Below, piece by piece: positions 3,648 to 11,437 of a stretch of 64,000 nucleotides of DNA. Below the pieces are notes generated by a model that had not been told where the DNA came from, ran no database searches, and saw only the letters and a list, made by a program, of their open reading frames with translations. The DNA comes from a virus. The position numbers were made by a program, and so were the translations under genes. The stretch covers positions 1-64,000 of the IMG/VR virus record IMGVR_UViG_3300047089_000307. The stretch is one strand, 5' to 3'. Within the stretch, counting starts at the first letter, position 1; every line of letters begins with the position of its first letter.

Positions 3648-3720
3648 GGGCTGCTGGTGTAATGGCGTAGCACAAGAGCTTCCAAACCTCTTGGTCCGGG
3701 TTCGATCCCTGGGTGGCCTG
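3648..3720 (+). tRNA. tRNA-Trp (CCA)
   Basis: A full cloverleaf is present. The acceptor GGGCTGC pairs with GTGGCCT, the anticodon loop TTCCAAA gives CCA, the T-loop is TTCGATC, and the discriminator is G73 as usual for Trp. One C-C mismatch closes the anticodon stem. Confidence 0.8.
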
Positions 3721-3845
3721 CTGGTTCCCACGCTGCACGACCGGGCTGGACGGAACCGTAACTTGATACCTCAACAGTGATGAGCAAATGCTCAGGGATC
3801 GCGGGAGGGCCTTGTGTCCGTTCGACCGGGTCTGCCTGGGCAGAT

Positions 3846-3919
3846 GGGACCTTAGCTCAGCCAGGGAGAGCACCTGCGTGGCACGCAGGGGGTCGCGGGT
3901 TCAATTCCCGCAGGTTCCA
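3846..3919 (+). tRNA. tRNA-Ala (GGC)
   Basis: The acceptor GGGACCT/AGGTTCC carries the alanine identity pair G3-U70. The anticodon stem CCTGC/GCAGG encloses GTGGCAC (GGC). T-loop TTCAATT, A73. Confidence 0.88.
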
Positions 3920-3923
3920 CTTC

Positions 3924-3995
3924 GGGCCGGTAGCTTAACGGTAGAGCGATTGCCTTGCAAGCAATTAGGCCAGGGTTCGAATCCCTGTTGGTCCA
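3924..3995 (+). tRNA. tRNA-Ala (TGC)
   Basis: Acceptor GGGCCGG/TTGGTCC again has G3-U70. The loop CTTGCAA gives TGC. T-loop TTCGAAT, A73. Confidence 0.88.
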
Positions 3996-4072
3996 CGGCC
4001 GCGGTAGCGAGTTCGACTCTCGTCGCATCCACGCACGGGTGCGTACCTCAACGGATAGAGGACGGCACTTAT
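3996..4072 (+). other. tRNA halves in permuted order (3' half then 5' half)
   Basis: A 3' half (3997-4031: anticodon stem GGCCG, T-arm GCGAG-TTCGACT-CTCGT, acceptor CGCATCC, A73) is followed after 5 nt by a 5' half (4037-4072: acceptor GGGTGCG, a textbook D-arm TA-CCTC...GAGG, anticodon stem CGGCA and loop up to TAT). The two acceptor strands pair 7 of 7 (one G-U), and the anticodon strands pair 4 of 5. The next tRNA starts immediately at 4073. Either a permuted tRNA gene or the remains of a tandem duplication. Confidence 0.6.
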
Positions 4073-4146
4073 CTAGGTATGGCGCAGTTTGGTAGCGCGC
4101 CGGGTTCGGGACTCGGAGGCCGCAGGTTCAAATCCTGCTATCTAGA
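4073..4146 (+). tRNA. tRNA-Pro (CGG)
   Basis: Acceptor CTAGGTA/TATCTAG, D-arm TGGCGCAG...GCGC, anticodon stem CCGGG/CTCGG with loop TTCGGGA (CGG), T-loop TTCAAAT, A73. Confidence 0.88.
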
Positions 4147-4152
4147 CTTTTT

Positions 4153-4227
4153 CGGGTTGTAGCTTAGCTTGGTGAAAGCGCGCGGCTGGGGGCCGCGAGA
4201 GCGCAGGTTCGAATCCTGCCTGCCCGA
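4153..4227 (+). tRNA. tRNA-Pro (GGG)
   Basis: Acceptor CGGGTTG/CTGCCCG (one mismatch), anticodon stem CGCGG/CCGCG with loop CTGGGGG (GGG), T-loop TTCGAAT, A73. Confidence 0.85.
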
Positions 4228-4231
4228 CGAG

Positions 4232-4391
4232 GGAAGCAGGAAGGTGGGCTTAGAAGCAGCCATCCTTTAAAGAGCGCGGTCATGCTGCCTTTTGTCTGAG
4301 GGCGCCAGCGGTAAGAGCTGGCACGCTAGCGGGCGGAAGGGTAAACGGGGAATCGCCCTGGCGTAACAGCACACCTGTTTTCCTGGAGCAC
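4232..4391 (+). ncRNA. structured RNA with a 23S rRNA GTPase-centre-like hairpin
   Basis: Bases about 4240-4277 closely match the conserved core of the L11/thiostrepton-binding region of bacterial 23S rRNA (helix 43 region, E. coli about 1055-1090). The run GGCTTAGAAGCAGCCAT (4247-4263) is identical to the rRNA, and TTTAAAGA follows as in rRNA. The helix 44 loop is not conserved. The segment is probably closed by GGAAGCAGG (4232-) pairing with CCTGTTTTCC (about 4376-4385). A second, weaker resemblance to later 23S sequence is seen near 4341-4362. It sits between tRNAs, not in an rRNA operon. Confidence 0.6.
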
Positions 4392-4401
4392 CGGGAAGTT
4401 A

Positions 4402-4474
4402 CGGATACGAGGGAGACGGATAACCCGCCTGGTCTGGGGCCAGGAAAAACTCAGTTCGACCCTGAGGTATCCGA
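4402..4474 (+). tRNA. tRNA-Pro (TGG) with C33
   Basis: Acceptor CGGATAC/GTATCCG pairs perfectly; anticodon stem CCTGG/CCAGG is perfect and encloses TCTGGGG, so the anticodon is TGG but position 33 is C instead of U. T-loop TTCGACC, A73. Position 8 is G rather than U. Confidence 0.7.
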
Positions 4475-4484
4475 CTGAAGCGGT

Positions 4485-4498
4485 CCCCCGTCAGGGGG
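4485..4498. other. short GC hairpin
   Basis: CCCCC-GTCA-GGGGG followed by TTAAAAA. It may be an RNA processing or weak termination signal within the array. Confidence 0.3.
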
Positions 4499-4505
4499 TT
4501 AAAAA

Positions 4506-4548
4506 CGGGCGTGGCCGAGTGGCGCCGCTGTGAAAAGAACGCCCGCCA
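4506..4548 (+). ncRNA. mini tRNA-like hairpin ending in CCA
   Basis: CGGGCGT (4506-4512) and ACGCCCG (4539-4545) form a perfect 7-bp acceptor-like stem directly followed by CCA. The inside keeps a D-arm-like GGCCGAGTGGC but lacks anticodon and T arms. It may be a deleted tRNA or a small acceptor-like RNA. Confidence 0.35.
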
Positions 4549-4549
4549 T

Positions 4550-4621
4550 GTGCCTTTGGCGTAAGGGGAAACGCGCCTGGTTGAAGCCCAGGGGTTCGCG
4601 GTTCGATTCCGTGGGGGTGCA
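4550..4621 (+). tRNA. tRNA-Phe (GAA)
   Basis: Acceptor GTGCCTT/GGGGTGC (with wobbles), D-stem GCGT/ACGC, anticodon stem CCTGG/CCAGG with loop TTGAAGC (GAA), A73. Position 37 is G instead of the usual A. Confidence 0.8.
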
Positions 4622-4622
4622 C

Positions 4623-4693
4623 GGGGTAGTTGGTTAACGGTAAACCAAGAGCCTTCCAAGCTTTGACTGCGGGTTCGAATCCCGTCTGCCCTT
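4623..4693 (+). tRNA. tRNA-Gly (TCC)
   Basis: Acceptor GGGGTAG/CTGCCCT, D-stem GGTT/AACC, loop CTTCCAA (TCC), T-loop TTCGAAT, T73 as expected for Gly. Confidence 0.88.
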
Positions 4694-4698
4694 CGGTA

Positions 4699-4774
4699 AA
4701 CGCTCGCAGTCAGGATAGGCGCGGTTCTTCGGGATTGCGTAATGGCCTGGCCCACTGGGAGCCAAGCGAGTGTT
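4699..4774 (+). other. unassigned structured segment
   Basis: ACGCTCGC (4699-4706) can pair with GCGAGTGT (about 4767-4774), closing a 60-nt internal region. No tRNA arms can be assigned. Confidence 0.25.
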
Positions 4775-4777
4775 TAT

Positions 4778-4846
4778 GCCGCAGCGCACGGCCTGCGACT
4801 CCCCCTTCGTACGGGGGACGGCCCGGTTCGACCCCGGGTTGCGGCT
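4778..4846 (+). tRNA. tRNA-Thr (CGT)
   Basis: Acceptor GCCGCAG/TTGCGGC, anticodon stem CCCCC/GGGGG with loop TTCGTAC (CGT), T-loop TTCGACC, T73. The D-arm is short (16 nt between acceptor and anticodon stem) and position 8 is C. Confidence 0.65.
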
Positions 4847-4997
4847 CTGCTCGTAAGGTCACCACGCGACTGTCACAGGGAGCGCGGCCCTGAGGGGAAG
4901 CACGGCCGCTGCGAACCCGGGACTTGTTAAGCCATCCACATCACGGTCGTTAGCCGGCTGCCTCCGGGCGTGGCTCTTACACTGGCAAGTCCCATCT
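4847..4997 (+). other. spacer without assignable tRNA
   Basis: About 150 nt containing GC hairpins (for example GCGGCC...GGCCGC near 4885-4910) but no complete cloverleaf or ORF that I can support. Confidence 0.3.
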
Positions 4998-5068
4998 GCG
5001 CTGCAAGCATTGTGGTGATGCAGAGGACTCTTAATCCTCGGAGCGGGGTTCGATCCCCTGGTGGCGCA
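4998..5068 (+). tRNA. tRNA-Lys (CTT)
   Basis: Acceptor GCGCTGC/GTGGCGC, D-stem GCAT/ATGC, anticodon stem GAGGA/TCCTC with loop CTCTTAA (CTT), T-loop TTCGATC, A73. Confidence 0.85.
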
Positions 5069-5069
5069 C

Positions 5070-5142
5070 GCGCGGCTAGTCCAATGGCAGAGGCGCCGGA
5101 CTCAAGATCCGGGCGATCCGGGTTCGAGTCCCGGGCTGCGCA
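5070..5142 (+). tRNA. tRNA with CAA anticodon, short variable loop
   Basis: Acceptor GCGCGGC/GCTGCGC, anticodon stem CCGGA/TCCGG with loop CTCAAGA (CAA, leucine codon UUG), T-loop TTCGAGT, A73. The variable loop is only GCGAT, whereas leucine tRNAs normally have a long arm, so charging with leucine is not assured. Confidence 0.75.
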
Positions 5143-5146
5143 CCGT

Positions 5147-5217
5147 TTCCCTCTCGTTCAATGGCAGGACGCCTGACTCTGAATCAGGCAATTGAGGTTC
5201 GAGTCCTCGGAGGGAAG
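5147..5217 (+). tRNA. tRNA-Gln (CTG)
   Basis: Acceptor TTCCCTC/GAGGGAA with the U1-A72 pair and G73 expected of Gln; stem CCTGA/TCAGG with loop CTCTGAA (CTG). Confidence 0.9.
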
Positions 5218-5222
5218 CTCAT

Positions 5223-5296
5223 GTCCGGGTAGGCAACTGGCAGACCACTCGCCTTGAGGTGGCGTGATGCTGTGGGTTCGAATCCCATCCTGGATA
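5223..5296 (+). tRNA. tRNA-Leu (GAG), shortened variable arm
   Basis: Acceptor GTCCGGG/CCTGGAT, loop TTGAGGT (GAG), T-loop TTCGAAT, A73 with an encoded CCA at 5297-5299. The variable region is much shorter than in cellular leucine tRNAs. Confidence 0.75.
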
Positions 5297-5300
5297 CCAA

Positions 5301-5371
5301 TGCCCTCTCGTTTAACGGCAGGACGCCGGGCTTTGGCCCCGGTAGTCGAGGTTCGAATCCCCGGGGGGCAG
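5301..5371 (+). tRNA. tRNA-Gln (TTG)
   Basis: Acceptor TGCCCTC/GGGGGCA with U1-A72 and G73; anticodon stem CCGGG/CCCGG with loop CTTTGGC (TTG). Confidence 0.88.
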
Positions 5372-5375
5372 CAGT

Positions 5376-5449
5376 GCCGCTTTAGCTCAGATGGCTAGAG
5401 CAGCCGCCTTGTAAGCGGCAGGTCGCCGGTTCGAGGCCGGCAAGCGGCT
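5376..5449 (+). tRNA. tRNA-Thr (TGT)
   Basis: Acceptor GCCGCTT/AAGCGGC, anticodon stem GCCGC/GCGGC with loop CTTGTAA (TGT), T73. All stems are complete. Confidence 0.92.
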
Positions 5450-5453
5450 CCGC

Positions 5454-5526
5454 GCCTGACTAGCTCTAGCGGTAGAGCGTCGCCATGGTAAGGCGAAGGT
5501 CATCGGTTCGAATCCGATGTCAGGCT
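5454..5526 (+). tRNA. tRNA-Thr (GGT)
   Basis: Acceptor GCCTGAC/GTCAGGC, anticodon stem TCGCC/GGCGA with loop ATGGTAA (GGT), T-loop TTCGAAT, T73. Confidence 0.92.
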
Positions 5527-5530
5527 CTTT

Positions 5531-5602
5531 GCAGACGTGGCGCAACGGTAGCGTATTACCTTGCCAAGGTAATGGTTGCGGGTTCGAGTCCCGTCGTCTG
5601 CT
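5531..5602 (+). tRNA. tRNA-Gly (GCC)
   Basis: Acceptor GCAGACG/CGTCTGC, anticodon stem TTACC/GGTAA with loop TTGCCAA (GCC), T73, followed by an encoded CCA (5603-5605). Confidence 0.92.
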
Positions 5603-5606
5603 CCAC

Positions 5607-5691
5607 GCGCGGGTGGTTGGAATTGGCAGACACGCACGGCTCAGACCCGTGTGGCCGCAAGGTCGTGAGGGTTCGAGTCCCTCTTCGCGCA
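5607..5691 (+). tRNA. tRNA-Leu (CAG)
   Basis: Acceptor GCGCGGG/TTCGCGC, anticodon stem CACGG/CCGTG with loop CTCAGAC (CAG), a normal long variable arm, T-loop TTCGAGT, A73. Confidence 0.9.
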
Positions 5692-5747
5692 CTAGGTGAC
5701 CCGGTAAACGTGGCGCTGCCGCGGCAACCGCAATCCGGGCACTCCCT

Positions 5748-5833
5748 GGAAGGCTCGCATAGCTGGCTTATTGCGCTGCCCTGCTAAGGCAGTTCGGATA
5801 ATACCGACGCGGGTTCGAATCCCGCGCCTTCCT
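5748..5833 (+). tRNA. tRNA-Ser (GCT)
   Basis: Acceptor GGAAGGC/GCCTTCC, anticodon stem CTGCC/GGCAG with loop CTGCTAA (GCT), long variable arm, T-loop TTCGAAT. The discriminator is T rather than the usual G. Confidence 0.85.
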
Positions 5834-5891
5834 CTGGATTCGCGTGAGGTACCGAAATGGCGCAAGCCTGTGAAGCGTGAGTCCTTCAAAT

Positions 5892-5975
5892 GGAAGATGA
5901 ACCTGGCAGGAGTCAGGGACCGGCCGGAAACCGGTTCGGCGCGCGAGCGCTGGGATTCGAGTTCTCCGTCTTCCG
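5892..5975 (+). tRNA. tRNA-Ser (GGA) with C33
   Basis: Acceptor GGAAGAT/GTCTTCC and G73; anticodon stem ACCGG/CCGGT is perfect and encloses CCGGAAA, so the anticodon GGA is preceded by C33 instead of U33. Long variable arm present. The upstream 58 nt (5834-5891) hold a weaker tRNA-like fold with a GTG-containing loop that I could not complete. Confidence 0.7.
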
Positions 5976-6113
5976 CGGAGGTAGGCCGGGAAACCCTGAC
6001 AGCGGGGAGGTTGCCTGCCTGCTGCCTTGAACTCCTGGGGAGCGCGACGTACGGCTAACCCCGAATCCCGCCAGGGCACAGGACAAGGGCAACATTTCCT
6101 GTGCCCGATCCCC
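5976..6113 (+). other. spacer with a perfect 10-bp hairpin
   Basis: GGGCACAGGA (6074-6083) pairs perfectly with TCCTGTGCCC (6097-6106) around a 13-nt loop, with no U tract. It may be an RNase processing site. The preceding 98 nt contain GCGGG/CCCGC but no clear T-loop, so no tRNA is called. Confidence 0.4.
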
Positions 6114-6195
6114 GGAAGGTACGCAGCCGGCGCTGCAACTCGCCTCGAAAGCGAGGGCGGGGTAACACCTGGGGGCTCGACACCTCTACCTTCCT
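6114..6195 (+). tRNA. tRNA-Ser (CGA)
   Basis: Acceptor GGAAGGT/ACCTTCC, anticodon stem CTCGC/GCGAG with loop CTCGAAA (CGA), long variable arm. The T-loop is CTCGACA (C54 instead of U54) and the discriminator is T. Confidence 0.72.
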
Positions 6196-6200
6196 CTTAC

Positions 6201-6273
6201 GGGCTCCTCGTCTAATCGGTGAGGACGCGTGTCTGATAAGCACGTAATCGGGGTTCAATTCCCTGGGGGCCTA
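6201..6273 (+). tRNA. tRNA-Ile (GAT)
   Basis: Acceptor GGGCTCC/GGGGCCT, anticodon stem CGTGT/GCACG with loop CTGATAA (GAT), T-loop TTCAATT, A73. Confidence 0.88.
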
Positions 6274-6274
6274 C

Positions 6275-6346
6275 TGGAGCGTCGTTCAATGGTAAGGACG
6301 CGCCTCTTATACGGACGTGACTCGGGTTCGATTCCCGGCGCTCCTA
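6275..6346 (+). tRNA. tRNA-Ile (TAT)
   Basis: Acceptor TGGAGCG/CGCTCCT (first pair unpaired), D-stem GTTC/GGAC, anticodon loop CTTATAC (TAT, codon AUA), T-loop TTCGATT, A73. One mismatch lies in the anticodon stem. Confidence 0.7.
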
Positions 6347-6347
6347 C

Positions 6348-6420
6348 TGGGATATAGCTTAGACGGAAGAGCGGCGGATTCATAACCCGTCAGGCCCGGG
6401 TTCGATCCCCGGTATCCCGA
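6348..6420 (+). tRNA. tRNA with CAT anticodon (elongator Met or Ile2)
   Basis: Acceptor TGGGATA/TATCCCG, D-stem GCTT/GAGC, anticodon loop TTCATAA (CAT), T-loop TTCGATC, A73. It lacks the three G-C pairs of initiators, so it is an elongator methionine tRNA or a lysidine-modified isoleucine tRNA. Confidence 0.8.
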
Positions 6421-6424
6421 CTAT

Positions 6425-6495
6425 GCCTCTTTAGCATAAGGCAGTGCAGCGGGCCTTTACCCCGCGTTGTCAGGGTTCAAGTCCCTGGGGAGGTA
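6425..6495 (+). tRNA. tRNA-Lys (TTT) with C33
   Basis: Acceptor GCCTCTT/GGGAGGT, D-stem GCAT/GTGC, perfect anticodon stem GCGGG/CCCGC with loop CCTTTAC: anticodon TTT, position 33 is C. T-loop TTCAAGT, A73. Confidence 0.72.
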
Positions 6496-6496
6496 C

Positions 6497-6570
6497 TGCG
6501 CGCAGGTGTACCGGATGGTCACGCCGGCCTTCTAAGCCGAGAGGACGGGGTTCGACTCCCCGGCGCGCGA
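6497..6570 (+). tRNA. tRNA-Arg (TCT)
   Basis: Acceptor TGCGCGC/GCGCGCG, anticodon stem CGGC/GCCG with loop CTTCTAA (TCT), T-loop TTCGACT, A73. Position 8 is A. Confidence 0.8.
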
Positions 6571-6575
6571 CTCAT

Positions 6576-6648
6576 GCTCGTGTGGACAAGCGGTGAAGTC
6601 ACCTGCCTCTCAAGCAGGAGATCCCGGGTTCAAATCCCGGTACGAGCA
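6576..6648 (+). tRNA. tRNA-Glu (CTC)
   Basis: Acceptor GCTCGTG/TACGAGC, anticodon stem CCTGC/GCAGG with loop CTCTCAA (CTC), T-loop TTCAAAT, A73. Confidence 0.9.
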
Positions 6649-6653
6649 CGTTT

Positions 6654-6744
6654 CCAGGGAAGCGCACAGTCCGGACTGTGCTAGCGGTTCTGGCCGATCA
6701 GGAACGTATGCCGGGCGGTTCGATTCCGTCGCCGCGTTCCCTGG
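6654..6744 (+). ncRNA. tRNA-like structured RNA
   Basis: CCAGGGAA (from 6654) pairs with TTCCCTGG (6737-6744), longer than a normal acceptor. A T-arm (GGCGG-TTCGATT-CCGTC, 6714-6730) is present. The D/anticodon region is replaced by the perfect 18-bp palindrome GCACAGTCCGGACTGTGC (about 6664-6681). No anticodon can be assigned. Confidence 0.4.
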
Positions 6745-6752
6745 ATTCATGA

Positions 6753-6823
6753 CGTCCTGTCGATCATGGGTAGGTCCCGGTCCTTTCAAGGCCGAGAACA
6801 GGGTTCGAGTCCCTGTAGGACGA
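6753..6823 (+). tRNA. tRNA-Glu (TTC)
   Basis: Acceptor CGTCCTG/TAGGACG, anticodon stem CGGTC/GGCCG with loop CTTTCAA (TTC), T-loop TTCGAGT, A73. Confidence 0.85.
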
Positions 6824-6824
6824 C

Positions 6825-6899
6825 CGCGGAGTAGGGGAGCTCGGTGTCCCCGCTGGGCTCATAACCCAGAGATCGCGGGTTCAAATCCCGCCTCCGCTA
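6825..6899 (+). tRNA. initiator tRNA-fMet (CAT)
   Basis: The anticodon stem CTGGG/CCCAG has the three consecutive G-C pairs of initiators with loop CTCATAA. Position 1 (C) does not pair with position 72 (T), the other initiator hallmark. T-loop TTCAAAT, A73 and an encoded CCA (6900-6902). Confidence 0.92.
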
Positions 6900-6903
6900 C
6901 CAA

Positions 6904-6974
6904 TCTCCTATCGTTTAATGGGAGGACGAGCGGCCGTTAACCGCTTAATTCTGGTTCGAGTCCAGGTGGGAGAG
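6904..6974 (+). tRNA. tRNA-Asn (GTT) with C33
   Basis: Acceptor TCTCCTA/TGGGAGA and G73 as expected for Asn. The perfect anticodon stem AGCGG/CCGCT encloses CCGTTAA: anticodon GTT with C at position 33. Confidence 0.75.
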
Positions 6975-6975
6975 C

Positions 6976-7045
6976 GGAAGCAGGAAGGGAGTACGCCTTC
7001 GCCAGGGAAGGTCTGGCACGAGAGAAGAGCCGTCCTGCTTCACCA
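6976..7045 (+). ncRNA. tRNA-like RNA closed by a 9-bp stem and ending in ACCA
   Basis: GAAGCAGGA (6977-6985) pairs perfectly with TCCTGCTTC (7033-7041), followed by ACCA. An internal hairpin GCCAG/CTGGC has a 7-nt loop GGAAGGT. There is no T-loop. The 5' sequence GGAAGCAGGAAGG is the same as the start of the 23S-like RNA at 4232. Confidence 0.4.
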
Positions 7046-7047
7046 AT

Positions 7048-7122
7048 GGGGCTATAACTCAGCCTGGTTAGAGTGCCACCTTGTCACGGTGGAAGCCGCC
7101 GGTTCAAATCCGGTTAGTCCCG
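7048..7122 (+). tRNA. tRNA-Asp (GTC)
   Basis: Acceptor GGGGCTA/TAGTCCC, anticodon stem CCACC/GGTGG with loop TTGTCAC (GTC), T-loop TTCAAAT, G73 as expected. Confidence 0.92.
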
Positions 7123-7123
7123 C

Positions 7124-7195
7124 GCAGCCATGGTGAAATGGATATCATGACAGGCTACGAACCTGTCGGTCTGGGTTCGACTCCCGGTGGCTGTA
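7124..7195 (+). tRNA. tRNA-Arg (ACG)
   Basis: Acceptor GCAGCCA/TGGCTGT, anticodon stem ACAGG/CCTGT with loop CTACGAA (ACG), A73 and encoded CCA (7196-7198). Confidence 0.92.
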
Positions 7196-7244
7196 CCAGC
7201 GCTAACTCCGGATGGCGCTATAGAAAACGTTCCGGGGCGAGCAA

Positions 7245-7316
7245 GCCCACTTAGCTCAGAGGCAGAGCGGCTGTCCTACAAACAGCGGGCCGGGATTTCG
7301 AAATTCTCAGTGGGTA
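7245..7316 (+). tRNA. tRNA-Val (TAC) with C33
   Basis: Acceptor GCCCACT/AGTGGGT, D-stem GCTC/GAGC, perfect anticodon stem GCTGT/ACAGC with loop CCTACAA: anticodon TAC, C33. The T-stem is weak (one mismatch), A73. Confidence 0.72.
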
Positions 7317-7336
7317 CTGCGCCGGAAGGCGCTCAT

Positions 7337-7420
7337 GGCGGCGGAAGCAGGATGGCATTATGCGTCAGGTTGTGACCCTGTGTCCGCAAGGATTCGCGGG
7401 TTCAAATCCCGTTCGTCGCC
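7337..7420 (+). tRNA. tRNA-His (GTG) with long variable arm
   Basis: An extra G at -1 pairs with C73, the histidine identity mark, extending GCGGCGG/TCGTCGC. The anticodon loop is TTGTGAC (GTG). The variable region includes TCC-GCAA-GGA, a class II-like arm not expected for histidine. T-loop TTCAAAT. Confidence 0.8.
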
Positions 7421-7540
7421 CGTAAGCCGGGGTTGAGGGCATCCTCGTGACGGCAAGCCGGACTCAGGCAGGCTCCCGGCCCCGCAAATCGCGTTCAGCC
7501 GTGACCTGCCGGGTTCAATGGCCGCGGAAACCCTCTTTAC
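7421..7540 (+). other. spacer without assignable tRNA
   Basis: About 120 GC-rich nt with short hairpins (GGGTT/AACCC near 7510-7532). No complete tRNA or ORF is supported. Confidence 0.3.
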
Positions 7541-7622
7541 TGACGAGTATGCAAGTGGTTCAAAGCATCCGGCCTGTAAATCCGGCGCCTCGGCTTCGTG
7601 GGTTCGAATCCCTCCTCGTCAA
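7541..7622 (+). tRNA. tRNA-Tyr (GTA)
   Basis: Acceptor TGACGAG/CTCGTCA pairs perfectly, anticodon loop CTGTAAA (GTA), long variable arm, T-loop TTCGAAT, A73. Confidence 0.85.
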
Positions 7623-7624
7623 CC

Positions 7625-7711
7625 GTGCCCCTACCCTGGATTGGTCTCCGGCGCTTGACGGCGTGCACGCTGCCGACGCTAGTGAGTATCCGTTCGAATC
7701 GGACAGGGGCT
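7625..7711 (+). other. degenerate class II tRNA-like segment
   Basis: TGCCCC near 7626 can pair with GGGGC at 7706-7710 and a T-arm TCCG-TTCGAAT-CGGA is present. The anticodon arm is ambiguous (a TTGA-containing loop might be serine TGA). Confidence 0.35.
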
Positions 7712-7719
7712 CGATACTT

Positions 7720-7788
7720 ATCCTTGGCAGCGGACCTGCTGCCCTCCCTCCGAAGGAGAGTTACCCGGTTCGACTCCGGGCAGGGATA
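7720..7788 (+). tRNA. tRNA-Arg (CCG)
   Basis: Acceptor ATCCTTG/CAGGGAT, anticodon stem with loop CTCCGAA (CCG), T-stem CCCGG/CCGGG with TTCGACT, A73. The D-arm is short. Confidence 0.65.
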
Positions 7789-7836
7789 CGAGGGGCCTCC
7801 CCGGGGCGCTGATGACAAAGAAGTACCGGGGATCAT

Positions 7837-7909
7837 GTCGCGTTACTCTCCGGTGAGGGGGCCTGGCTGCAACCCAGGCTGACGTCCGGTTCGACCCCGG
7901 AACGCGACT
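7837..7909 (+). tRNA. tRNA-Cys (GCA)
   Basis: Acceptor GTCGCGT/ACGCGAC, anticodon stem CCTGG/CCAGG with loop CTGCAAC (GCA), T73 as expected for Cys. Confidence 0.9.
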
Positions 7910-7916
7910 CTGCGCC

Positions 7917-7982
7917 CCCGCCGGCGGATTCGGTCCAGGGTTTCCTAAACCCGGGTGCCTGGTTCGACTCCAGGCGGCGGCA
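7917..7982 (+). tRNA. tRNA-Arg (CCT), short D-arm
   Basis: Acceptor CCCGCCG/CGGCGGC with an unpaired first position, anticodon loop TTCCTAA (CCT), T-stem CCTGG/CCAGG, A73 and an encoded CCA (7983-7985). Only 66 nt because the D-arm is reduced. Confidence 0.65.
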
Positions 7983-8004
7983 CCAGTTTGCTCATCACTG
8001 CTGA

Positions 8005-8016
8005 GTCTGTTATAGT
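8005..8016 (+). promoter_or_regulatory. promoter-like element (GTCTGTTATAGT)
   Basis: A GTCT-TATAGT element with the -10-like hexamer at 8011-8016, 6 nt before the ATG at 8023. It could drive a leaderless cupin mRNA and the last tRNA-like genes. Confidence 0.45.
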
Positions 8017-8022
8017 ATTCCC

Positions 8023-8538
8023 ATGGAAGGCTGGGAGCCTGCGAGGCTAGGCGGATTCCGGCGTTCGACCGCGGGTAGCTCAGAATGGAAGAGCGCTGCG
8101 CAGATTACGCAGAGGCCGGTGTCTCGAAAGCATCACCGCGGACTATGGCGAGCAGCCTGGGCTGAGAAGCTCGGGTTGCCCGGTTGTCCCTATGTCGTGA
8201 GGTGGCGGCTGGAGACCCCGGCAGGCTCTGTCCGGGTGCACCATTGGCTGAGGCCGGATGATGACCGGGCCTTCCATGATCATCCCTGGTGGTTCCTCAC
8301 CCTGGTCCTGCGCGGCGGCTACGCCGACCGGACCCCTGCGGGGGAGGACTACCTGTCCGCGGGGTCCGTGCGGTTCCGGCACGCCCGCTACCAGCACACC
8401 GTGATTCCGGGCCCGCAGGGTGCGTGGACGTTCCTGGTCACCGGCCGGCCAGCCCGCGCCTGGGGCTTCTGGAGGGACGGGAAGTTCCGCAAGGCCAATA
8501 AGTGGTTCGCCGCGTTCGGGCACCACCCGTGCTCTTGA
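8023..8538 (+). CDS. cupin-like protein
   Basis: The open frame gives 171 aa. The supported domain starts near residue 50 (LGLPGCPYVVRWRLETPAGS) and carries HHW, RAFHDHPWWFLTLVLRGGY and RHARYQHTVI, the two His-rich motifs of a small cupin often seen in phages. Metal binding is likely; substrate unknown. The ATG at 8023 fits a leaderless start, but residues about 16-40 are encoded across a tRNA-like sequence (8069-8142), so the true start may be the GTG at 8119 (AGAGG upstream). Confidence 0.65.
   Translation: MEGWEPARLGGFRRSTAGSSEWKSAAQITQRPVSRKHHRGLWRAAWAEKLGLPGCPYVVRWRLETPAGSVRVHHWLRPDDDRAFHDHPWWFLTLVLRGGYADRTPAGEDYLSAGSVRFRHARYQHTVIPGPQGAWTFLVTGRPARAWGFWRDGKFRKANKWFAAFGHHPCS
8069..8142 (+). 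tRNA. tRNA-like gene with aberrant anticodon loop (GAT)
   Basis: All four stems form: CCGCGGG/ACCGCGG, GCTC/GAGC, CTGCG/CGCAG, GGTGT/GCATC. The anticodon loop is CAGATTA, so U33 is replaced by A and purine 37 by T; the T-loop is CTCGAAA (C54). It overlaps the cupin ORF. It may be a decayed Ile(GAT)-type tRNA. Confidence 0.5.
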
Positions 8539-8687
8539 AGTATGGTACAGTATCTACGAGCGTAGCCTCAGCTTCCTGATCGCTCCCGGCCGTGTTGCCG
8601 GGAATCAGCCTCGTCGTCGTCATATCGCTCCAGCTTCAGCCTCCTTGATCCGTGTGTCCTCAGGCCGCGGGCCTGCGTACCGGAAGT

Positions 8688-8760
8688 GCGGGTTCAATTC
8701 CCGCCGGCTCCTCCCGTGGAGCCGTAGCTCAATTGGCAGAGCGTCGTTACTCAAGAAAAC
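8688..8760 (+). other. tRNA halves in permuted order (second case)
   Basis: A 3' half (T-arm GCGGG-TTCAATT-CCCGC and acceptor CGGCTCC, 8688-8712) precedes a 5' half (acceptor GGAGCCG at 8718-8724, then a textbook TA-GCTC-AATTGGCA-GAGC D-arm). The acceptor strands pair 7 of 7, separated by 5 nt. The anticodon region after the D-arm contains CTCAAGA but does not match the 3' half. Confidence 0.5.
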
Positions 8761-8805
8761 GGGCCGTTCCTGATGGCAGCCAAGCGGAACAGCACTTGCG
8801 TGCTC

Positions 8806-8879
8806 AATGAGGGTTCGAGTCCCTCCAGCGGTTCACTCGCTGTGGCGTAATCGGAAAACGCAATCGCCTTATAAGCGAT
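8806..8879 (+). other. tRNA halves in permuted order (third case)
   Basis: T-arm GAGGG-TTCGAGT-CCCTC and acceptor CAGCGGT (8826-8832) are followed after 3 nt by CTCGCTG (8836-8842), a D-arm GCGT...ACGC and a complete anticodon arm ATCGC-CTTATAA-GCGAT (TAT). No T-arm follows; the sequence runs into the terminator. Confidence 0.45.
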
Positions 8880-8894
8880 CATAAAACGCAAACA

Positions 8895-8935
8895 GGGACC
8901 CCCGGCCAGGGTAGTGCCGGGGGTCCCGCTTTTTT
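8895..8935 (+). terminator. strong rho-independent terminator ending the tRNA array
   Basis: GGGACCCCCGGC (8895-8906) pairs perfectly with GCCGGGGGTCCC (8916-8927), followed by GC and six T. Confidence 0.92.
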
Positions 8936-8953
8936 AAGGAGGGCACGTCCCCG

Positions 8954-9076
8954 GTGGCGGATGACGACGAGCACGTTCACTCGTATACGACGACAAGCTG
9001 GGAAGACAACGACACGGTGTACCTGCAATGGACGTGCGCGTGCGGTGACTCGTACACCACGTCCTCGAAGAAGTAG
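8954..9076 (+). CDS. small hypothetical protein (40 aa)
   Basis: A GTG start has AAGGAGG about 10 nt upstream. The protein begins MADDDEHVHSYTTTSWEDND and has a CAC metal-binding-like motif near its end (WTCACGDSYTT), resembling a truncated zinc ribbon. Confidence 0.6.
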   Translation: MADDDEHVHSYTTTSWEDNDTVYLQWTCACGDSYTTSSKK

Positions 9077-9148: not shown

Positions 9149-9964
9149 ATGCAGATCGTACGTACGGAGACCCCGACCGGCGGCCCGGCGAGGACCCGGC
9201 GCGAGGAGATCGTCGCGCTGCTGCCGCAGGAGTCAGAGGCGGAGCCGGAGGTATACGCCGACTGCTCGGAGTCAGAGGGCTGGCCCTGGAGCAGTAACTC
9301 CGCAGTCTGCACCTGGGATGTCCAGATCGAGGCGATCCGGCAGCTCATCGTCCCGTTCGAGGCCCTGGACAGCCAGGCTGCGGGAGAGCAGGCGGACGGC
9401 GATGCCAGCCACGGCGGCGTGTACGTCTACCCGTTCAGCAACGTCTTCCTGCCGATCGGCAAGGGCGACGACGACGGCGACCTGAACTCTGCCAACTTCG
9501 AGCAGAAGATGCTCCGGGACTTCTACCGCAAGTACTTCGACGGCGGGACGCACCCCGTCCGCGGCGGCACGGAGATCATGGCGGCTATCAAGGCCGGCGA
9601 CGCGCACTACCTGGGTGACGCCCGCGATAAGGGCGAATTCTACGACACTCCTCGCGGTGACCGGCCGGTCCGGTTGCGTGTGGTGTTCACGGACGGCGCG
9701 CTGAGTGATGCGGCCAAGTTCCTGAAGTACCTCGCGCAGGCCACGCTCAGCCCGAAGGGCTACGGCTCACACGGCGAGTGGGACGAGGTCTGGGCGATCT
9801 GCATCCTCGGCGAGGCCGGCGGCGGCGGGAAGGCCGCCTACGACCAGTACGCGGAGATCGCCGGAACGCACCCGTGGGTGCACGCGTACTACTTCGAGAA
9901 CGTCGCGAATCCCGCGGAGATTGCTGAGGACATGGCCGTGGCGGCTATCCCTGCCCTGGCGTAA
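9149..9964 (+). CDS. vWA-like (von Willebrand factor A-type) protein
   Basis: This 271-aa protein has AAGGA upstream of its ATG. The middle and C-terminal parts suggest a vWA fold: GGTEIMAAIKAGD near residue 140 (the Thr loop) and PVRLRVVFTDGALSDAAKF near 175 (the D-G strand end). The classic first DxSxS motif is not obvious; a variant could be within residues 85-110 (GGVYVYPFSN). Such proteins often partner with AAA ATPases, but none is seen nearby. Function unknown. Confidence 0.6.
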   Translation: MQIVRTETPTGGPARTRREEIVALLPQESEAEPEVYADCSESEGWPWSSNSAVCTWDVQIEAIRQLIVPFEALDSQAAGEQADGDASHGGVYVYPFSNVFLPIGKGDDDGDLNSANFEQKMLRDFYRKYFDGGTHPVRGGTEIMAAIKAGDAHYLGDARDKGEFYDTPRGDRPVRLRVVFTDGALSDAAKFLKYLAQATLSPKGYGSHGEWDEVWAICILGEAGGGGKAAYDQYAEIAGTHPWVHAYYFENVANPAEIAEDMAVAAIPALA

Positions 9965-9974
9965 TCAAGAATGA

Positions 9975-10018
9975 GAAGCCCCCGGTTACGTGGCTCGTGC
10001 CGGGGGCTTCACGTTTTT
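9975..10018 (+). terminator. rho-independent terminator
   Basis: GAAGCCCCCGG (9975-9985) pairs with CCGGGGGCTTC (10000-10010), followed by ACGTTTTT. It separates the + unit from the convergent minus-strand genes. Confidence 0.85.
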
Positions 10019-10399
10019 CAGCGGGGACTGCACCTTCTTCTTCTTCTTCTTCTTCTTCTTCTGGAACTGGCGCCAGCGCGACCGCGCCCGGTAGCACGGC
10101 CAGATCACCAGTCGGCGAGCCGGGTAGACCAGCAGGCGGTGCAGCCGGCGGCGCGTACGGGACTTCCGCCAGGACCGGTGCCCGATGTGAATGTGCGGCA
10201 CGTGGCCGCGGCCGGCCTGCCAGTCGCCGGACCAGGTGCAGGCGTACGGCACCAGGTACCGTGCGTCGCCGCGCCGGCGGGATACCAGCTCCCGCTCCCG
10301 GATGCAGATCCGCGCGATGGCCAGCCAGGCGCGGGCACGGCTGGGGTACGTGCGCTTGCGCCCGTGCTGGGCGAGCCAGTCACTGCGCCTGCGGCTCAT
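9986..10399 (-). CDS. basic protein with poly-Lys tract (137 aa)
   Basis: Very rich in Arg/Lys, starting MSRRRSDWLAQHGRKRTYPS, with a central HVPHIHIGH motif. Nine consecutive lysines are encoded by nine AAG codons near the C-terminus. The last residues overlap the terminator. It may be a nucleic-acid-binding protein; the poly-Lys tract may vary in length. Last gene of the minus-strand block. Confidence 0.55.
   Translation of the reverse strand: MSRRRSDWLAQHGRKRTYPSRARAWLAIARICIRERELVSRRRGDARYLVPYACTWSGDWQAGRGHVPHIHIGHRSWRKSRTRRRLHRLLVYPARRLVIWPCYRARSRWRQFQKKKKKKKKKVQSPLKNVKPPARAT
10034..10060. repeat. trinucleotide microsatellite (CTT)9
   Basis: Nine perfect CTT units on the + strand encode nine Lys in the minus-strand ORF. 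The tract is unusual in this GC-rich sequence and prone to slippage. Confidence 0.95.
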
Positions 10400-10712
10400 G
10401 GCCCCCGTCCGGGGGAGTTACCTCCAGGAACCCGCCAAGCCGGTCGTAGATTCGCAGCAGGTTGCAGCGCGATCCGAACTTGTCATAGAACCAGCGGCAG
10501 TACGCTGCTCCCGCGGCCAGCTGCCCGGCGTATCCCAGGGTCTGGTGGCAGATGATCGCCCCGCCGCCGGCCAGGGCCTCCCGGACCATGCCCTGGACCC
10601 TCCCGGCGCGCAGGTCCATGAGGTTGCCCGCCCGGCCGATGCAAGAGGAGCACTGCTCGCTCAGTAGCCGCGGCTGCCCGGTCCCCGGGTCGAACACGTT
10701 GCGGCCCGTCAT
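10380..10712 (-). CDS. hypothetical protein with CSSC motif (110 aa)
   Basis: Contains CSSCIGRAGNLMDLRAGRVQ, then GGGAIICHQTLGY and a C-terminal DRLGGFLEV. I recall similar proteins in actinobacterial genomes and phages, without known function. It overlaps the methyltransferase gene by 4 nt, so it is co-translated. Confidence 0.7.
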   Translation of the reverse strand: MTGRNVFDPGTGQPRLLSEQCSSCIGRAGNLMDLRAGRVQGMVREALAGGGAIICHQTLGYAGQLAAGAAYCRWFYDKFGSRCNLLRIYDRLGGFLEVTPPDGGHEPQAQ

Positions 10713-11437
10713 AGCTGGGCCAGGACCTGGCGGCCGATCTCCTGCGTCATGTACGGCGGGATCGCTTCGGCGACGTCATCGCGGTTGCGCATCCAGTCGA
10801 TGGCCATGGCCTCGCGGACCGGCTCCTTGCGCTCGTGGCCGGAGACGCTGACGTACATGCCCGGCTTCCAGTGCCCGGCCTTCGCCGCCGGAACCGGGTG
10901 ATTCCACAGGCACCACTTGTTGAACGGCGTTGCCGAGTGCTGCTGCCAGGGCGGCGCGGGCGGCTGGGTGAGCGTGATCCCGTTCCCGGCCTCGAACAGG
11001 CGGTGCCGGTAGACGGGCTTGCCGAACATCTGCCCGCACAGCGTGACCGGGTCCTTCAGCCAGGGCCGGGCGGCGGCGACGTTCTCGATGACGTACGGGA
11101 GGCCAGTGCGCTCCAGCAGCTCGCGCCCGGGGCCGATCAGGTCCGGGTAGCCTGTCGCGAGACCTGGCCGGCACCGGCTCATCTGCGAGTAAAACTGGCA
11201 GGGAAAGCTGACGTGAATGAAGCTGAAGTCACGCAGGTCGCGCTGGCTGGCGAGTAGCTCCATGATGTTCCCGGCACCAAGCCAGTGGCCGCCCGATAGC
11301 TCGTAATCGCGGGCGTGCCGGGGGTTCAGGTCGGTTCCCCATACTTCAAATCCGGCGTCGATGTATCCCCGGGTAGCCCCGCCGGCTCCGCAGCACCCGT
11401 CAAGCATCACGGGACGTGGATGGGTTTGCCGGCTCAT
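10709..11437 (-). CDS. DNA (cytosine-5) methyltransferase
   Basis: This 242-aa protein shows the C5 methyltransferase motifs in order: motif I (LDGCCGAGGATRGYIDAGF, residues 12-30), motif IV with the catalytic Cys (SFPCQFYS, near 77-84), and motif VI (VIENV, near 117). The target recognition part is short. It would protect phage DNA from host restriction. The ATG at 11437 has GGAGAG upstream, but the frame stays open to about 11514 and encodes a zinc ribbon (CWSC and CRPC) that may be an N-terminal extension. Confidence 0.88.
   Translation of the reverse strand: MSRQTHPRPVMLDGCCGAGGATRGYIDAGFEVWGTDLNPRHARDYELSGGHWLGAGNIMELLASQRDLRDFSFIHVSFPCQFYSQMSRCRPGLATGYPDLIGPGRELLERTGLPYVIENVAAARPWLKDPVTLCGQMFGKPVYRHRLFEAGNGITLTQPPAPPWQQHSATPFNKWCLWNHPVPAAKAGHWKPGMYVSVSGHERKEPVREAMAIDWMRNRDDVAEAIPPYMTQEIGRQVLAQL

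Follow-up and report, generated by a model that had tools for sequence, protein, structure and literature searches.

Three sites in one viral genome raise the question of what becomes of an RNA in which the 3′ half of a tRNA is encoded ahead of its 5′ half. We analyzed a 64,000-nucleotide stretch (the window) of a 158,651-base virus record (G000; 158.7 kb, possibly incomplete), in which a T-arm and 3′ acceptor strand lie directly 5′ of a matching 5′ acceptor strand and D-arm at positions 3997 to 4072, 8688 to 8762, and 8809 to 8879. We consider it probable, at roughly 0.8, that these junctions are tRNA-like modules of the YrlA (bacterial Y RNA) type, circularly permuted and closed at the acceptor, from an actinophage-like virus. 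This reading draws on comparisons of sequence and predicted structure.

Three permuted junctions in and beside a tRNA array

The window carries a large tRNA array on the plus strand (3648 to 7985; 33 genes by ARAGORN), which hosts the first junction. The permuted order and complete acceptor pairing reported there by the first-pass annotation were confirmed, as were the two further junctions that it had placed near 8.7 to 8.9 kb. The acceptor strands pair at 7 of 7 positions at 3997 to 4072 and 8688 to 8762 and at 6 of 7 at 8809 to 8879, with 3 to 6 nt between the 3′ and 5′ strands in every case. As a chance control, we paired non-cognate acceptor strands of the 33 array tRNAs; none of 1,056 combinations reached 7/7 (3.9% paired at 6/7 or better), which makes the two 7/7 cases unlikely to have arisen by chance. 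The same control in the array of a diverged relative, L002, gave 5 of 812. A strict pattern scan (gap of at most 15) returned the three junctions, one wrong-register match at a tRNA-tRNA junction, and nothing else.

The first module (3997 to 4072, plus strand) fills the gap between tRNA-Ala(TGC) and tRNA-Pro(CGG). Its T-arm (4007 to 4023) is followed by the 3′ acceptor strand CGCATCC (4024 to 4030), a 6-nt gap (ACGCAC, a discriminator-like A plus five nucleotides), the 5′ acceptor strand GGGTGCG (4037 to 4043), and the D-arm (4046 to 4061). The acceptor strands thus form a closed hairpin (4024 to 4043) whose seven pairs include one G-U, and a 4-bp stem (3998 to 4001 with 4063 to 4066) closes the module. 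The minimum free energy structure predicted by RNAfold for 3996 to 4072 alone is exactly this permuted cloverleaf, with a folding energy that is ordinary relative to shuffled sequences (z = −0.94). The module lacks an anticodon-arm-like hairpin. An exact-pattern search of viral contigs with its acceptor and D-arm gave zero matches, so the module is represented by one genome, with no second sequence.

The other two modules belong to a locus of their own (8559 to 8940, plus strand) composed of a leader, the two modules, and a terminator-like hairpin with a T run. Module 1 (8681 to 8762) comprises a T-arm (8688 to 8704), an acceptor hairpin (8705 to 8724) in which CGGCTCC and GGAGCCG form seven Watson-Crick pairs, and a D-arm (8727 to 8742), and it adopts the permuted arrangement in its predicted fold. 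Module 2 (8809 to 8879) has a T-arm (8809 to 8825), an acceptor hairpin (8826 to 8842; CAGCGGT with CTCGCTG), and a D-arm (8845 to 8861). In both, an anticodon-arm-like hairpin follows the D-arm: TCGTT-ACTCAAGAA-AACGG at 8744 to 8762 in module 1 and ATCGC-CTTATAA-GCGAT, with an Ile UAU-type loop, at 8863 to 8879 in module 2. Downstream, a strong G+C-rich hairpin followed by TTTTTT (8895 to 8935, plus strand), recognized by eye, is a probable intrinsic terminator; it is missing from the terminator scan list because its loop is too long for the scan tool. No sigma-70-type promoter was found 5′ of the locus. A CAGCTTCAGC-like motif occurs twice in the leader (8559 to 8640), upstream of the modules, and is also present in L002 (10526 to 10615). 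Folds of the whole locus are barely or no better than those of shuffled sequences (z = −1.91 in the window and −0.17 in L002).

The array holds further unusual sequences. Positions 4238 to 4278 closely resemble the GTPase-associated center of 23S rRNA (H43/44), with ∼90% identity over 39 nt to E. coli 23S genes, and lie in a stretch (4236 to 4375) that is 81% conserved in L002 (11595 to 11734). The fragment agrees at 37 of 37 positions with unannotated sequence within the tRNA cluster of Pseudomonas phage UNO-G1W1 and at 35 of 36 with sequence in that of phage pf16, with similar sequences in XacN1 and Aeromonas phage 4_4572; it is a possible phage rRNA mimic, as judged from these matches. By eye, we also recognized tRNA-like genes missed by ARAGORN at 4401 to 4475 [Pro(UGG)], 6118 to 6196 [Ser(CGA)], 7338 to 7420 [His(GUG); also found by Rfam], and 7729 to 7789 [Arg(CCG)]. 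Several structured-looking stretches between tRNAs (4694 to 4781, 4860 to 4998, 5834 to 6110, 6649 to 6753, and 6975 to 7048) correspond to neither a recognized tRNA nor a long open reading frame, and some have long complementary ends (e.g., GGGACTTG...CAAGTCCC at about 4920 to 4996).

Conservation of the permuted helices

Permuted junctions could also arise by decay, if tandem tRNA genes were each truncated from the outside, as the first-pass annotation had suggested, and the matching acceptors reflected descent from a duplicated tRNA. Arrays of tRNA genes recombine often, and the evidence for 3997 to 4072 comes from a single genome, both of which favor such an origin. A search with the protein encoded at 9149 to 9961 led to five related loci. 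The contig L001 is identical to the window and stops short of 3997 to 4072, whereas L002 is diverged and has a syntenic tRNA array. Positions 8559 to 8862 are conserved in L002 at 10526 to 10840, on the opposite side of the array; the retention of the locus at a different position relative to the array indicates an element of its own. Both of its permuted junctions are kept. Between the window and L002, 7 pairs show compensatory double changes, 1 shows a one-sided change, and 23 are unchanged, and one further pair is formed in L002 and unpaired in the window.

Compensatory changes that preserve permuted helices between two diverged phages are hard to reconcile with decay, which fails at 8.6 to 8.9 kb on this account; the arrangement is, moreover, common to many phages that carry Ro60. 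At the L002 site syntenic to 3997 to 4072, Ala(TGC) immediately precedes Pro(CGG) with nothing between them, so a parent tRNA pair for this module has left no trace there. The two complete tandem tRNAs that decay would predict in relatives were found at neither site in L002. We consider decay quite unlikely overall.

Resemblance to YrlA RNAs and the missing Ro60

Closed permuted modules of the YrlA type accommodate these observations, and we evaluated them with covariance models. Ro60 (TROVE) is the protein partner of Y RNAs, and the partner RNAs of Ro60/Rsr are the YrlA/Y RNAs. The YrlA model RF02553 matched module 1 over its full length (38.2 bits at 8662 to 8769; E = 4.8 × 10−8), with the outer stem poorly paired, and gave 31.6 bits at 3999 to 4068 and 26.0 bits at 8808 to 8861, compared with a maximum of 21.9 bits on ordinary tRNA-tRNA junctions of G000. 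The Rfam gathering cutoff of 69 bits is missed by all window modules and equally by all six positive controls, annotated actinophages with a Ro-like protein (Nappy, Sparky, Cashline, Kela, Alone3, and Neville). Each control has a YrlA match of 33.8 to 44.1 bits no more than about 1 kb 5′ of Ro, so the window scores fall in or close to the range normal for phages.

For an independent model, R1, we used 12 phage Y-RNA modules from outside the window and L002; the R1 acceptor helix covaries (0/500 shuffles). R1 scored 58.5 bits for module 1 (at 8681) and 48.9 bits for the array module (at 3999), against a maximum of 40.5 bits for ordinary tandem junctions of the window. The L002 modules scored 41.4 and 37.9 bits, against 25.0 bits for the best ordinary L002 junction. 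Module 2 scored 30.6 bits, within the ordinary-junction range; it is thus not separated by R1, and its case rests on conservation in L002. High R1 matches at 3887 to 3956 and 4114 to 4188 of the window and in G010 proved to be ordinary tandem tRNA junctions and served as the null.

The gene neighborhood points in the same direction. In the related locus L004, Y RNAs (6103 to 6990) are followed by genes for Ro60 (7361 to 9025), a vWA protein (10001 to 10810), and a methylase-like protein (12082 to 11399). The window has the same order and strands minus Ro60: the Y-RNA-like locus (8559 to 8940), the vWA counterpart (9149 to 9961), and the methylase-like gene (11437 to 10709). This synteny, with Ro60 missing from the window, closes the identity argument. 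The plus-strand gene at 9149 to 9961 encodes a conserved 271-amino-acid protein whose homologue adjoins Ro60 in L004; a low-confidence structural model (mean pLDDT, 54) gave weak matches, most of them to vWA domains, and the protein probably has a vWA-like fold. The minus-strand gene at 10709 to 11437, a conserved syntenic marker of 242 amino acids, has a subthreshold match to C-5 cytosine methylase. In L004, there is no ARAGORN tRNA nearby; instead, the locus has six units in tandem that share a conserved GGGCCGG...TCGGTTA stem; several of these units enclose the same permuted module, and Rfam names one of them YrlA. G012, related through the methylase-like gene, likewise has Y RNAs upstream of Ro60, with the order and orientation relative to that gene seen in L004. 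Of 12 related records, 7 encode TROVE, and a profile search detected it in 3 of another 4. Searches with Pfam and a four-member phage profile detected no Ro60 in G000 or G002, both possibly incomplete records. In bacterial genomes, the Ro60 profile yielded only four loci, with no strong module. Streptomyces phage Kela (L040, 1729 to 2481) has a gene annotated as an RNA ligase in the interval that separates its Y-RNA-like module from Ro60.

The window modules share with bacterial YrlA/Y RNAs the T-arm, the acceptor stem with a short closing loop, the D-arm, and the short closing stem, and phage copies of these RNAs sit just upstream of Ro60. They differ in having neither a recognizable Ro60-binding stem nor a Ro60 gene, in placing anticodon-arm-like hairpins 3′ of the D-arm, and in that one copy is a bare module within a tRNA array. 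Allowing up to three mismatches, the window still has no copy of the relatives' Ro60-stem motif, GGGCCGGANGAGRATCGGTTA, and at 3997 to 4072 the space between the flanking tRNAs is too short for such a stem. The Y RNAs of Ro60-bearing actinophages and related IMG/VR phages (L004, L009 to L013, G012, Nappy, Sparky, Cashline, and Neville) contain the module as in the window, and L004 and G012 share its neighborhood order; unlike the window, these phages have Ro60, most have a GGGCCGG...GGTTAYC stem, and in most of those examined the T-arm is preceded by a complete anticodon arm, the anticodons being of many different kinds. Because the tRNA-mimic module is present while the Ro60 stem, the Ro60 gene, and a score above the Rfam cutoff are lacking, we file the window features as YrlA-like rather than as full Y RNAs. 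They probably derive from a Ro60-associated Y-RNA locus.

Anticodon arms, tRNA identity, and possible roles

The anticodon arm of the relatives merits closer description. Most Ro60-associated phage Y RNAs examined have a short anticodon arm before the T-arm. In 13 sequences with a 7-nt loop, 38 of 39 inner stem pairs (three per unit) form, and the two outer pairs form with bases 3′ of the D-arm in 26 of 26 cases; these counts, in a register picked by eye, were never reached in 20,000 trials in which partners were shuffled among the 13 sequences. The loop has U33 (12/13), a purine at 37 (13/13), and A38 (13/13), with eleven distinct anticodon triplets represented. A further unit, from Cashline, fits the pattern fully. 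When the parts were joined in tRNA order, ARAGORN called a tRNA for 12 of 13, compared with 52 of 156 non-cognate joins, so this figure is moderately discriminating at best. On this evidence, the Ro60-associated phage Y RNAs resemble whole tRNAs that have been circularly permuted, with the opening near 28|29. The tRNA-Ser(gct) deposited for Alone3 (L041, 2274 to 2385) is 74 nt long, lacks a long variable arm, and overlaps a permuted Y-RNA-like module whose acceptor strands pair 7/7; the acceptor and inner stem fit the pattern, the outer pairs do not, and the tRNA assignment is probably a misannotation.

Could the window modules be genuine permuted tRNA genes, whose transcripts are circularized via the anticodon region and cleaved at the acceptor by RNase P and RNase Z to give decoding tRNAs? 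Algal and archaeal permuted tRNA genes (Soma 2014, as cited in PMC10085705) likewise encode the 3′ half 5′ of the 5′ half, and the acceptor pairing is comparable. Trial joining can also restore tRNAs: the commonest ARAGORN calls were Leu(caa) for the module at 8688 and Ile(tat) for that at 8809 (the latter in 473 of 1,600 joins). The flanking tRNAs bound the module at 3997 to 4072 exactly, and their processing would place its ends on the anticodon side. When joined, however, this module forms only 4 of 5 anticodon-stem pairs, and a 7-nt loop requires the discriminator base of the upstream tRNA. The anticodon region at 8.6 to 8.9 kb differs between the window and L002, and the restorable anticodons (Leu CAA and Ile UAU) duplicate those of ordinary array tRNAs. 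A ligase search, directed at RtcB only, found none in ten records. Whereas algal and archaeal transcripts are circularized and recut to ordinary tRNAs, the window bears no sign of such processing; the acceptor end is closed by a loop of 2 to 10 nt, and module position and architecture match the YrlA RNAs of Ro60-bearing phages. The circularize-and-cut scheme raised by the first-pass annotation is thus unsupported, and we regard it as very unlikely. Fragments of a permuted, two-piece tmRNA are an extremely unlikely explanation: RF04321 and RF01850 match the T-arm/acceptor part weakly and partially (22.3 and 19.0 bits), below their gathering scores and below YrlA, the D-arm is complete and of the tRNA type, neither a tag nor pseudoknots were found, and ARAGORN reported no tmRNA in the window.

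If the modules are YrlA-like, the locus at 8559 to 8940 would have descended from a Ro60-associated Y-RNA locus in which the phage Ro60 gene and a recognizable Ro60-binding stem were lost or dispensed with, and 3997 to 4072 would be a stand-alone copy freed by maturation of the flanking tRNAs. With its acceptor closed, such an RNA could not be aminoacylated and so would act as a stable tRNA look-alike, perhaps a decoy or tether for proteins that recognize the tRNA elbow or anticodon arm. Candidate targets are tRNA-modifying enzymes, PNPase, and anticodon nucleases of host defense. In a record without Ro60, the host's Ro60 may be used or the module may act alone. Any single one of these functions is, in our estimate, less than half as probable as the identity of the modules. 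There are precedents: in Deinococcus, a Y RNA tethers Rsr to PNPase, and the tRNA-like domain of YrlA has been suggested as a possible competitive inhibitor of anticodon nuclease (PMC7790460); some jumbo phages encode a TROVE protein with a tRNA-like partner (PMC7824862); and mycobacteriophage Y RNAs and their tRNA mimicry have already been published (Chen et al. 2014, as cited in PMC12282133 and PMC7790460).

A broader proposal, which we advance as a speculation and think unlikely, is that these phages deploy circularly permuted whole tRNAs, with a closed acceptor and an opening in either the anticodon stem or the variable loop, as diverse decoys displaying many anticodon loops (for example, against anticodon-nuclease defense), with Ro60 in some lineages, without it in that of the window, and with a bare copy in the array.

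Read as YrlA-like modules, what looked like a puzzling permuted tRNA becomes a recognizable RNA class, one that annotation misreads, as with the tRNA-Ser(gct) of Alone3. A lineage without Ro60 in which compensatory changes still preserve the fold would uncouple tRNA mimicry from Ro60 binding, and the anticodon arms of its Ro60-bearing relatives provide a concrete, testable decoy hypothesis for phage counterdefense.
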